64,000 bases of DNA from Lysinibacillus sp. B2A1. GTDB taxonomy: Bacteria > Bacillota > Bacilli > Bacillales_A > Planococcaceae. A program made the translations under genes and the position numbers. The notes beneath the pieces are model-generated. The model was not told where the DNA came from and made no database searches. It was given only the letters and a program-made list of their open reading frames with translations. Positions 51,017 to 59,531 of the stretch are shown here, in pieces. The stretch spans positions 4,350,501 through 4,414,500 of the forward strand of contig CP027224.1 in NCBI GenBank assembly GCA_002973635.1, read 5' to 3'. The number at the start of each line of letters is the position of its first letter. Position 1 is the first letter of the stretch.

Positions 51017-51149
51017 CCTAAAAACCTCCTTTTAATGATGCCTGTTCAAATAACTTCTTTGCAGTTTAGCTTAGCAGATTTTCATATCAATGTGGTCACC
51101 TACTTTAACGCAATTATAATGAGTTACCTGCGTGATTATCCTTTTATCG

Positions 51150-51233
51150 GAGCAGTTTTCACAGCCACCCGAGCAGTTTTAATGGCTATCTGAGCGACTC
51201 CCCCTACCAAAGCAACTTCTTGGTACTCAAGCG
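51150..51233 (-). repeat. Short 21-nt-period repeat array (inverse orientation)
   Basis: GAGCAGTTTT at 51150 and 51171 and GAGCGACT at 51192 are exactly 21 nt apart; two more decayed units follow. On the minus strand the heads read AAAACTGCTC, the same head as in the large array at 58 kb (AAACTGCTC). Confidence 0.65.
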
Positions 51234-57139: not shown

Positions 57140-58042
57140 ATGATGAATTATCAAAATATTACAGTTGCAGGTAGCGGAGTTTTAGGTAGTCAGATTGCCT
57201 ATCAAACAGCTTTCAAAGGGTTTAATGTAACGGTTTACGATATTAATGATGAAGCTTTGAAAAATGCACAAGATCGTATCACAAAATTAAAACCATTTTA
57301 TCAGCAAGATTTAGGAGCCTCCCAGGAAGAAGTAGATGCGGCATACGCTCGCCTAACATTTAAAAGTGATCTTGCGGAAGCTGTTGCAAATGCTGATCTT
57401 GTCATCGAAGCAATCCCTGAAGTGGTCAAAATTAAAATTGATTTTTACACTACTCTTGGCAAAGTAGCCCCTGCGAAAACTATTTTCGCTACAAACTCTT
57501 CTACATTATTGCCAAGCCAATTTGCTGAAGCAACTGGCCGCCCAGAAAAGTTTTTAGCACTTCATTTCGCAAACACAATCTGGAAAAATAACACGGCTGA
57601 AGTTATGAAACACCCAGGTACAGATATGAAGATATTCGATGAAGTCGTAGAGTTTGCGCGTGCAATCGGTATGGTGCCACTACCATTATATAAAGAGCAG
57701 CCAGGCTATATTTTAAATTCATTACTCGTACCATTTTTAGATGCAGCTGAATCGCTGTTAGTCAAAGAGGTAGCAGACCCAGAAACAATCGATAAAACGT
57801 GGATGATTGGTACAGGTGCTCCACTTGGACCATTTGCTATCCTAGACATTGTTGGTATTAACACTGCTTATAACATTGTGGAAGCAAAAGCAGCAGCGTC
57901 AGGCGATGAAAACATGAAAAAACTCGCGAACCTGTTAAAAACAGAGTATATCGACAAAGGCAAACTCGGCCGCTCAACAGGAGAAGGCTTCTATAACTAT
58001 CCAAACCCAAGCTTCGCAAAACCTGATTTCTTAAAAGGCTAA
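57140..58042 (+). CDS. 3-hydroxyacyl-CoA dehydrogenase
   Basis: 300 residues: a Rossmann domain with ITVAGSGVLGSQIAYQTAF and VTVYDIN, ATNSSTLLPSQ, ALHFANTIWKNNTAEV, then the C-terminal dimer domain with GYILNSLLVPFLDAA and GAPLGPFAILDIVGI. It oxidises a 3-hydroxyacyl-CoA with NAD, for example 3-hydroxybutyryl-CoA. GGAGG precedes two adjacent ATGs and the first is used. It is separate from the fad operon and has no FadR site, so it may act in short-chain or storage metabolism. Confidence 0.9.
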   Translation: MMNYQNITVAGSGVLGSQIAYQTAFKGFNVTVYDINDEALKNAQDRITKLKPFYQQDLGASQEEVDAAYARLTFKSDLAEAVANADLVIEAIPEVVKIKIDFYTTLGKVAPAKTIFATNSSTLLPSQFAEATGRPEKFLALHFANTIWKNNTAEVMKHPGTDMKIFDEVVEFARAIGMVPLPLYKEQPGYILNSLLVPFLDAAESLLVKEVADPETIDKTWMIGTGAPLGPFAILDIVGINTAYNIVEAKAAASGDENMKKLANLLKTEYIDKGKLGRSTGEGFYNYPNPSFAKPDFLKG

Positions 58043-58047
58043 TTGTC

Positions 58048-58088
58048 AAACGATGCACATAGCTAGTAACGCTGTGCATCGTTTTTTT
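58048..58088 (+). terminator. Intrinsic terminator
   Basis: AAACGATGCACA/TGTGCATCGTTT stem then TTTT, just after the dehydrogenase stop. Confidence 0.92.
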
Positions 58089-58187
58089 ATTGGATAGAGT
58101 TGCTCAAAATGACTTCGATTTAAAAATGATTTGAGCCTGCAAATAAATGATTGGCTCTGAGGCAAACTAATTGGATTTCACCTTAAA

Positions 58188-58687
58188 TTGATCAAGTTTG
58201 CTACTTTTTTGATCCCCTTGTAGCTTTAATTGATCAGGTCTGTCTCTTTTTTGATGACCTTGCACACAAATTGCTCAAGTTAGATAATAAATTGATCAGC
58301 TTGCATCACAAACTGCTCTGGTCAGCCCATTAATTGATCACCTTATATAACAAACTGCTCAGGTCGACTCATTAATTGATCGCCTTCCAATCCAAACCGC
58401 TCGGGTTACCCATTAAATTGATCGCCTTCCAACCCAATCCGCTCAGGTCGACTCATTAATTGATCGCCTTCCAACCCAAACCGCTCGGGTTACCCATTAA
58501 ATTGATCGCCTTCCAACCCAATCCGCTCGGGTTACACTTTAAATTGATCGGCTTCCATCCCAAACCGCTCGGGTTACCCATTAAATTGATCGCCTTCCAA
58601 CCCAAACTGCTCGGGTTACACATTAAATTGATCGGCTTTTACCACATACTGATCTGCTATAGTTTTTTGATCATTTCCTATCAATGG
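58188..58687 (+). repeat. Large 21-nt-period repeat array, about 24 units
   Basis: Heads lie at 58188, 58209, 58230 and 58251, then at 58271 and every 21 nt without error to 58649, and once more near 58667. Two head types alternate strictly from 58271: TTGATC and [C/T][C/T]GCTC (the last unit, CTGATC, ends the pattern), giving a 42-nt higher-order unit. Heads continue as AGGT or CGCCT or GGGTT; tails are variable but end in A-rich triplets. Older, degenerate units extend left to about 58100. No gene overlaps it. Confidence 0.93.
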
Positions 58688-59033: not shown

Positions 59034-59531
59034 TTAAAGGAATAAAACCATATAATCCTCATCAACATACAGCTGATCTATTTTTAATGCCCTTTTTTCT
59101 GTTCCAAAAACCTCAAATCCCAAAGAAGCATACAACCTTTTTGCTGAGGTATTTGTAGACACAACCGTTAAATTAATCTGCTCAATTCCCTCTAATTCCT
59201 TTGCCTTATTAATGATTTCGACCATTAAATACCTACCAATACCATACCCACGCTTTTTTGGAGAAACGTAAACAGCAAAGACACTTGCCTTATGCCTTAA
59301 CTTCTGCTTCCTTTCTAGTACTAGGGTTGCAACACCCACTAATTCTTCGTTGTAGAATGTTCCAAACGTGTAAGAATCCTGTGATTCTAATCTCTTTGCA
59401 AATTGCTCAAGGGTAAAATCTTTTTCCTCTTCAAAGCTAGAACCAAATGCCTCTGGATTATTCTTTAGTCCTTCTAATCTGATCCCCCGGTACATGTCAG
59501 CCTCTGCTGCACTTAATATTCTAATATTCAT
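59034..59531 (-). CDS. GNAT family N-acetyltransferase
   Basis: 165 residues: MNIRILSAAEADMYRGIRLE, ELVGVATLVLERKQ, the acetyl-CoA loop VYVSPKKRGYGIGRYLMVEI, INLTVVSTNTSAKRLYASLG and FEVFGTEKRALKI, a full GNAT fold of the RimI-like branch. TTGGAGG precedes the ATG. The substrate is unknown. Confidence 0.88.
   Translation of the reverse strand: MNIRILSAAEADMYRGIRLEGLKNNPEAFGSSFEEEKDFTLEQFAKRLESQDSYTFGTFYNEELVGVATLVLERKQKLRHKASVFAVYVSPKKRGYGIGRYLMVEIINKAKELEGIEQINLTVVSTNTSAKRLYASLGFEVFGTEKRALKIDQLYVDEDYMVLFL

Follow-up and report, generated by a model that had tools for sequence, protein, structure and literature searches.

Tandem repeats of bacterial chromosomes and plasmids fall into several described kinds. 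Variable-number tandem repeats (VNTRs) and minisatellites change in copy number, presumably by slippage. Iterons and plasmid centromere repeats are direct repeats spaced about two helical turns apart and bound in a row by one protein; they occupy one plasmid locus, have few units and are adjoined by the gene for the binder.

Two further kinds are dispersed. According to the text of PMC3532100, STAR elements carry the 14-bp motif T(G/A/T)TGTTG(G/T)GGCCC(C/A), occupy 32–39 loci per Staphylococcus aureus genome, are very uneven between species, and had no known function as of 2012. REP elements are described in the text of PMC1525189 as extragenic palindromic repeats that serve as targets of IS1397 and ISKpn1 (IS3 family) and of ISPsy8, which always breaks REP at one point.

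Here we describe an array that resembles each of these in part. It lies in a window of 64,000 nucleotides (the whole stretch of DNA analyzed, positions 4350501–4414500 of Lysinibacillus sp. B2A1) and is one locus of a dispersed family. Searches of the open-access literature showed no paper on such arrays, and a word search of two Lysinibacillus genome-comparison papers gave no mention of repeats, of tandem or repetitive sequence, or of intergenic DNA.

Results

The array in the window

The features of the locus are listed in Table 1. The heads of the array start at 58188, 58209, 58230 and 58251, then at 19 positions from 58271 to 58649 exactly 21 nt apart, and a last TTGATC starts at 58667. 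The only irregular steps, 20 nt (58251 to 58271) and 18 nt (58649 to 58667), fall outside the regular stretch. These head positions agree with the preliminary description of the locus, which had counted 24 units and claimed exact spacing over that stretch. Its claim that two head types alternate without exception up to 58649 holds for 18 units; the unit at 58649 (CTGATC) breaks the pattern. The autocorrelation of the array is 0.67 at 42 and 0.46 at 21, and TRF reports a period of 42. The pattern TTGATC-N33..39-TTGATC occurs 10 times in the window, always inside the array, against 0.14 expected.

Table 1. Features of the array locus, of a second array in the window and of the associated insertion sequence.
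Feature	Position	Strand	Basis
24-unit array in a 21-nt frame with core YYGMTCRGGT/RCCTT and two unit types in alternation	58188..58672	+	sequence, TRF, autocorrelation
Stretch of 18 units where GCTC and GATC heads alternate strictly at 21-nt steps	58271..58648	+	
Two decayed units at the upstream edge of the array (ATGATTGGCT, CTAATTGGAT; starts 58147, 58167)	58147..58187	+	sequence
Terminator-like hairpin with T run, between upstream gene and array	58050..58088	+	sequence; scan match 58058–58076, longer stem visible in the sequence
Upstream gene, 3-hydroxyacyl-CoA dehydrogenase family	57140..58042	+	Pfam PF02737/PF00725
Small ORF downstream of the array, 71 aa	58776..58991	+	
GNAT acetyltransferase-like gene downstream of the array	59034..59531	-	Pfam
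Second, minimal array of the same family, three units, 21-nt steps (TCGCTCAGAT, CTGCTCGGGT, CTGCTCCGAT)	51135..51197	-	
IS3-family element	L160:2450-3840, L164:4487-5840		Pfam rve, HTH_21

The upstream gene ends 145 nt before the first full unit. A terminator had been proposed ahead of the array, and the stop codon at 58042 is indeed followed by a hairpin with a T run. The 15 nearest named loci, all Lysinibacillus, encode proteins 88–94% identical to the upstream protein. Counterparts of the array were found in one further complete genome (G053), in L. xylanilyticus and in Lysinibacillus sp. BPa_S21, and none was visible in the 420 nt behind the gene in 13 other named Lysinibacillus loci. Two similar decayed units also lie at the edge of the G053 counterpart.

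A dispersed family of arrays

DNA and pattern searches found further arrays in the same genome (G000, a single contig of 5508835 bp; genome-scale coordinates of places are given as printed by our scripts, one base too high). R1, a sequence-only model of four units, matched at least 166 times there at E≤1, the scoring having covered 150 of 1208 candidates. A core detector run on the fetched stretches of this genome recognized 35 array stretches of 3 to 49 units at 33 places, two of the arrays being split by an insertion sequence (IS). Four more array places lie beside other IS copies, which brings the total to at least 37 places. The 35 stretches make up 0.26% of the genome. Similar arrays are therefore present elsewhere in this genome and, as described below, in relatives, which excludes a one-off slippage event.

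Arrays scored at least 15.9 with the detector and 64 composition-shuffled loci at most 6.6. Since the detector finds units by their core and accepts steps of 19–23 nt only, core conservation and spacing are partly built in and core conservation is somewhat inflated; the contrast between tails is unaffected. TRF, the IS sites and a core-free period scan are independent of it. The analyses below used 100 stretches, namely 35 from the own genome, 30 from G053 and 35 from G063 (complete genomes), with the halves of split arrays counted separately. One G053 place matched by R1 (L247) gave no array stretch by the detector.

Two further observations concern array location. Among the matches listed, no array falls in the first 384–450 kb of the three complete genomes. 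At L290:1433-1726 a second array, with GCTC heads and other bases replacing RGGT, lies about 1.2 kb from the main one.

Core, frame and the even-unit rule

Each unit consists of an A or T run, the core YYGMTCRGGT and a tail of about 7–8 nt before the next run. Among 1613 steps in the 100 stretches, 1453 were of 21 nt (90%, within the 19–23 nt that the detector allows), 122 of 20 nt, 18 of 19 nt, 17 of 22 nt and 3 of 23 nt, which upholds the proposed constraint on spacing. In arrays with alternating 20- and 21-nt steps the phase drifts over many units.

The tails are locus-specific and recur within an array mostly every second unit. In the own genome, tails at odd unit offsets are about 0.30 identical, near random, and at even offsets about 0.60. 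At the same odd offsets the core is 0.92–0.97 identical at the G, T and C of GMTC and 0.74–0.77 at the later G and T. When the best tail repeat was taken for 90 arrays of at least 8 units, it was even (2, 4, 6 or 8 units) in 84, odd in 3 and absent in 3. In 75 of these arrays the mean tail identity at even offsets exceeded that at odd offsets by more than 0.1, and the reverse was seen in none. The suggestion that the true unit is 42 nt long thus extends from the window array, through its TRF period and its higher autocorrelation at 42, to 84 of 87 classifiable arrays. Because tails are unlike at odd and alike at even offsets, the 21-nt step persists where neighboring tails have nothing in common, and copying apparently proceeds by 42 nt. 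Selection on spacing and recent amplification of a dimer had been offered as alternatives; the tails carry the mark of copying by two units, yet the 21-nt step holds, so the choice between the two falls away.

The two phases of an array share the invariant bases and tend to have the A or T run in common, and otherwise differ about as independent draws would. No systematic core difference between the phases was found. Single cores outside arrays showed no clear enrichment (11 in 699 kb against 2–10 in permuted controls), so single-copy sites do not back a binder. A possible likeness of the core to Chi sites or to the D arm of tRNA (GCTCAGNT) was set aside, as it would account for neither the G at the R position nor the occurrence of both head orientations.

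Genomic place and conservation between species

By mechanical ORF calls of at least 80 codons, 57 of the 100 stretches lie between tandem ORFs, 32 between convergent and 11 between divergent ones. The median distance from an array is 81 nt to an ORF 3′ end and 148 nt to an ORF start. Head orientation matches gene direction in 40 of the 57 tandem contexts. Forty proteins encoded next to some of the own arrays, two of them IS transposases, were scanned with Pfam and showed no functional theme, no cas genes and no DNA-binding family that recurred: TetR (L153), MarR (L160) and tyrosine recombinase (L146) proteins turned up once each. The neighbors include acyl-CoA dehydrogenases, AddB, fumarase, ATP sulfurylase and a MutY-like protein.

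The places are kept between species. After removal of one-sided flank matches, many of them caused by IS, G053 or G063 carries an array within the same pair of flanks for 27 of the 35 own stretches (23 in G053, 11 in G063, 7 in both), and the flanks of kept places are 79–97% identical. Over 43 same-place pairs in the three genomes, phase-consensus cores are 0.95 identical and tails 0.56, compared with 0.35 for tails of random array pairs. Tail identity at the same place is 0.65 between the own genome and G053 and 0.49 between the own genome and G063. The number of units differs in 42 of the 43 pairs, and head orientation is kept in 41. At G063:4810617 (L236) the heads are reversed where the own and G053 arrays keep the other orientation, as would follow from local inversion or replacement.

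Strand polarity of the tails

When the strand of positive flank GC skew is taken as leading, the tails on it are rich in purines in 88 of 100 arrays (34/35 own, 25/30 G053, 29/35 G063). When the leading strand is assigned by position, with boundaries chosen by eye, the count is 92. These arrays are not independent, many being orthologous. With assignment by position, the mean purine content of leading-strand tails is 0.71, against 0.52 (sd 0.047) in 351 ordinary intergenic pieces from the same loci. A content above 0.65 was reached by 78% of arrays and by 1.1% of these pieces. The window array is a weak case, with 0.55 on the leading strand.

Tandem arrays beside lagging-strand genes argue against transcription as the source of this asymmetry: of 10 such arrays, nine have their purine strand on the leading side by position, although two of the nine (L220, L269) show the opposite flank skew. 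The purine bias of the tails seems to follow replication rather than transcription.

Distribution across genomes

Within the genus, 12 of 32 genomes had R1 matches at E≤1e-5. Of 39 genomes reached via named loci, five, all Lysinibacillus, had R1 matches at E≤1e-4. R2, a broader model built from 40 arrays, some of them from genomes that were then searched, matched 15 of the 32: six rich genomes (82–161 matches), five intermediate ones (16–63) and four with 1–5. The arrays are not essential, because 17 of the 32 Lysinibacillus genomes have no R2 match at E≤1e-4. A family-level search at E≤1e-6 with stricter filters matched 32 of 261 genomes in 4 of 19 genera, and an order-level search gave the same genome number.

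Control loci showed other periodic arrays. At L065 (Sporosarcina luteola), L074 (Metabacillus litoralis) and L114 (Indiicoccus explosivorum) we saw 20–21-nt arrays with quite different cores, so this frame may extend beyond one family. Tandem arrays with a period of 51–52 nt, a different repeat family, occur at L068, L086, L087 and L107 and beside a relative of the IS described below (L299).

An IS3-family element inserted at the core

The IS has 13 copies in 4 of the 32 genomes of the genus: seven in the own genome, three in G053, two in G063, of which one is partial, and a 69% relative in G054. Twelve of the 13 lie in or beside an array, two of these with small arrays (three units at L276, five at L273); the exception is G000:1574576. 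The element inserts mostly at a fixed point of the core, directly before YGCTC in 7 of 10 readable array copies; at L271 it lies on the opposite side. Of the 10 array copies with both ends found, 8 have a clean 4-nt target duplication and two, L275 and L282, have none. No copy was found at E≤1e-100 in three array-rich Lysinibacillus genomes, G057, G062 and G069.

A protein search of 261 genomes found relatives at E≤1e-80 in 30. One locus per genome was subjected to the core-free period scan, which requires an identity of at least 0.55 over 105 nt (shuffled loci reach at most 0.49). A period of about 21, 42 or 63 was seen in 14 of the 30 loci, that is, in 2 of 6 from Lysinibacillus and in 12 of 24 from other genera. 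One of the remaining loci has a period of 51 and 15 have none, including L294 and L297, where the core detector sees short arrays. As a control, 160 pieces of the named-locus set, which is not genome-matched, gave 6 with such a period, two of them Lysinibacillus arrays at the window's own place. Among 17 further IS-relative loci in these genomes, 8 have a strong array (at least 0.65 over 84 nt), three a weak one (0.56–0.62, near scan noise) and six none, including L331–L333 of one genome. The more distant relatives that were fetched (48–49%; L321, L322, L340–L342) have no such array. Array units abut both ends of the IS at L302, L310, L312, L314, L319, L323–L326 and L337.

The 20–21-nt arrays alongside IS relatives in other genera mostly carry other cores. 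Several of these keep YGMTC (CCGCTCRAC, ACCGCTCGTAT, TATGATCGGTT); others do not (GAGAACTCTT, GTATCGGACA, ACTGTCCRTT). The core is common to all three loci in G221, roughly common to those of G259, and shared by two of three in G247. Within one genome, cores differ between L329 and L330 (G207) and between L327 and L328 (G247).

Discussion

The family behaves like direct repeats selected for core, frame and place, and phased protein sites would be the simplest mechanism. We propose, at somewhat short of an even chance, that the arrays are a phased, multivalent binding platform for a putative core-specific DNA-binding protein and are made uniform by 42-bp slippage. At each locus the core (a W-run followed by YYGMTCRGGT) recurs every two helical turns, which places all copies on one face of the DNA. 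The putative protein would bind the row of cores and might act on chromosome or nucleoid organization rather than on one gene. Steps of 42 bp, by slippage or unequal exchange, would homogenize the tails within an array and change its length; selection on core and spacing would keep the rest, while tails would drift freely. An IS3-family lineage would have adopted the core as a target outside genes. Weighing against the platform are the 17 Lysinibacillus genomes with no R2 match, the lack of a clear core excess outside arrays, the unlike cores within G207 and within G247, and the phase drift where 20- and 21-nt steps alternate.

A wider version of this proposal takes the arrays as a family-wide chromosome system: phased arrays of 20–21 bp, with frame and even-unit rule held across genera, the core re-spelled by each lineage, a putative fast-evolving core-binding protein, and the target of the IS3 lineage changing along. 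We consider this possible and, on balance, rather unlikely.

The main rival to a binding platform is a self-maintaining satellite without host function, which would grow by slippage and whose core would be kept by recombination or by a mobile element (molecular drive), only units with an intact core multiplying. The turnover of tails, the changes in array length, the recognition of the core by an IS and the patchy distribution all fit such a satellite. The array places, however, are kept between species with a flank identity of 79–97%, and the three array-rich genomes without an IS copy at E≤1e-100 indicate that the IS is not needed to keep the cores. Nor would an enzyme acting on the core alone be expected to conserve a 21-nt step between unrelated tails. 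We regard the satellite as a serious but unlikely explanation.

The arrays could instead be structural DNA, in which phased A/T runs and GC cores form a curved, wrappable track for gyrase, HU or SMC with no sequence-specific binder. Predicted curvature (wedge model, provisional wedge values) exceeded that of dinucleotide shuffles with z above 2 in 69 of 90 arrays and fell below -2 in none. It was also above that of column-permuted arrays of the same period (1.22 against 1.08 over 75 arrays; p<0.05 in 19), which counts as one result rather than 75, all arrays having one common layout. This excess would also fit the binding platform. The 32 stretches between convergent ORFs would suit this idea as well. 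The invariant GMTCNGST is not needed for curvature, however, and some long arrays are hardly curved in the same model (G000:3841702, z -0.2; 4724799, z 0.3). Structure alone is thus an improbable account.

A repeating RNA element, as the preliminary description had also suggested, would be transcribed and act as RNA. The short median distance to ORF 3′ ends and the agreement of heads with gene direction in most tandem contexts are in its favor. Against it, folding of the first 147 nt of 90 arrays relative to 20 shuffles gave a mean z of 0.02 and 0.01 for the two strands, with values below -2 in 8 and 10 arrays, so there is no average excess of structure. Rfam returned no family at cut-off for the three loci scanned (L001, L002, L004), the one match being far below the gathering score and outside the arrays. 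Tail composition tracks replication more than transcription, and the purine strand stayed the leading one, by position, beside nearly all lagging-strand tandem genes (two with opposite flank skew). An RNA role is therefore very improbable. Coding or decayed coding sequence of seven-codon repeats has next to no chance: 21 is a multiple of 3 and open frames of up to 375 codons cross some arrays, but these frames run on either strand and the 122 steps of 20 nt would break any of them.

The constraint on these arrays has parts that can be told apart and tested one at a time: the core, the helical frame, the even-unit rule, the replication polarity and the genomic place. The six array-rich and 17 matchless Lysinibacillus genomes form a natural contrast for finding the putative binder, and an IS that inserts mostly at a fixed core point is a ready probe of target choice. 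STAR, the nearest kind, had no known function in 2012 by the text of PMC3532100.

Compared with known repeat systems, the arrays differ from CRISPR arrays, where unique spacers lie between long repeats, in that tails recur within an array. Iterons and centromere repeats belong to a single plasmid locus, whereas these arrays are spread over dozens of places on the chromosome, and the neighbors scanned include no recurrent binder gene. With VNTRs and minisatellites they share a variable copy number; unlike those, they have a core and frame common to unrelated loci, the even-number rule and conserved places.

REP/BIME elements are, by PMC1525189, dispersed extragenic repeats targeted by particular IS. 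The arrays share this feature, 12 of 13 copies of the IS lying in or beside them. REP/BIME units are palindromes. The Lysinibacillus core, by contrast, lacks palindromy, gives no excess of hairpins and is repeated directly in long phased arrays; across host species the core changes, although the same IS lineage keeps to it.

STAR elements, as the text of PMC3532100 presents them, are likewise intergenic direct repeats with a short conserved GC-rich motif and locus-specific spacers. By the definition in that text, the STAR motif is absent here, where the core is YYGMTCRGGT. STAR motifs are at least 40 bp apart, with 1–7 per locus in its table, in contrast to a 21-nt frame and up to 49 units. 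No STAR neighborhood is common to two species according to that text, whereas 27 of 35 own stretches are kept, and a word search of it found no mention of leading strand or orientation. Of the known kinds, the arrays most resemble STAR elements, and they are like REP/BIME in having a dedicated IS.
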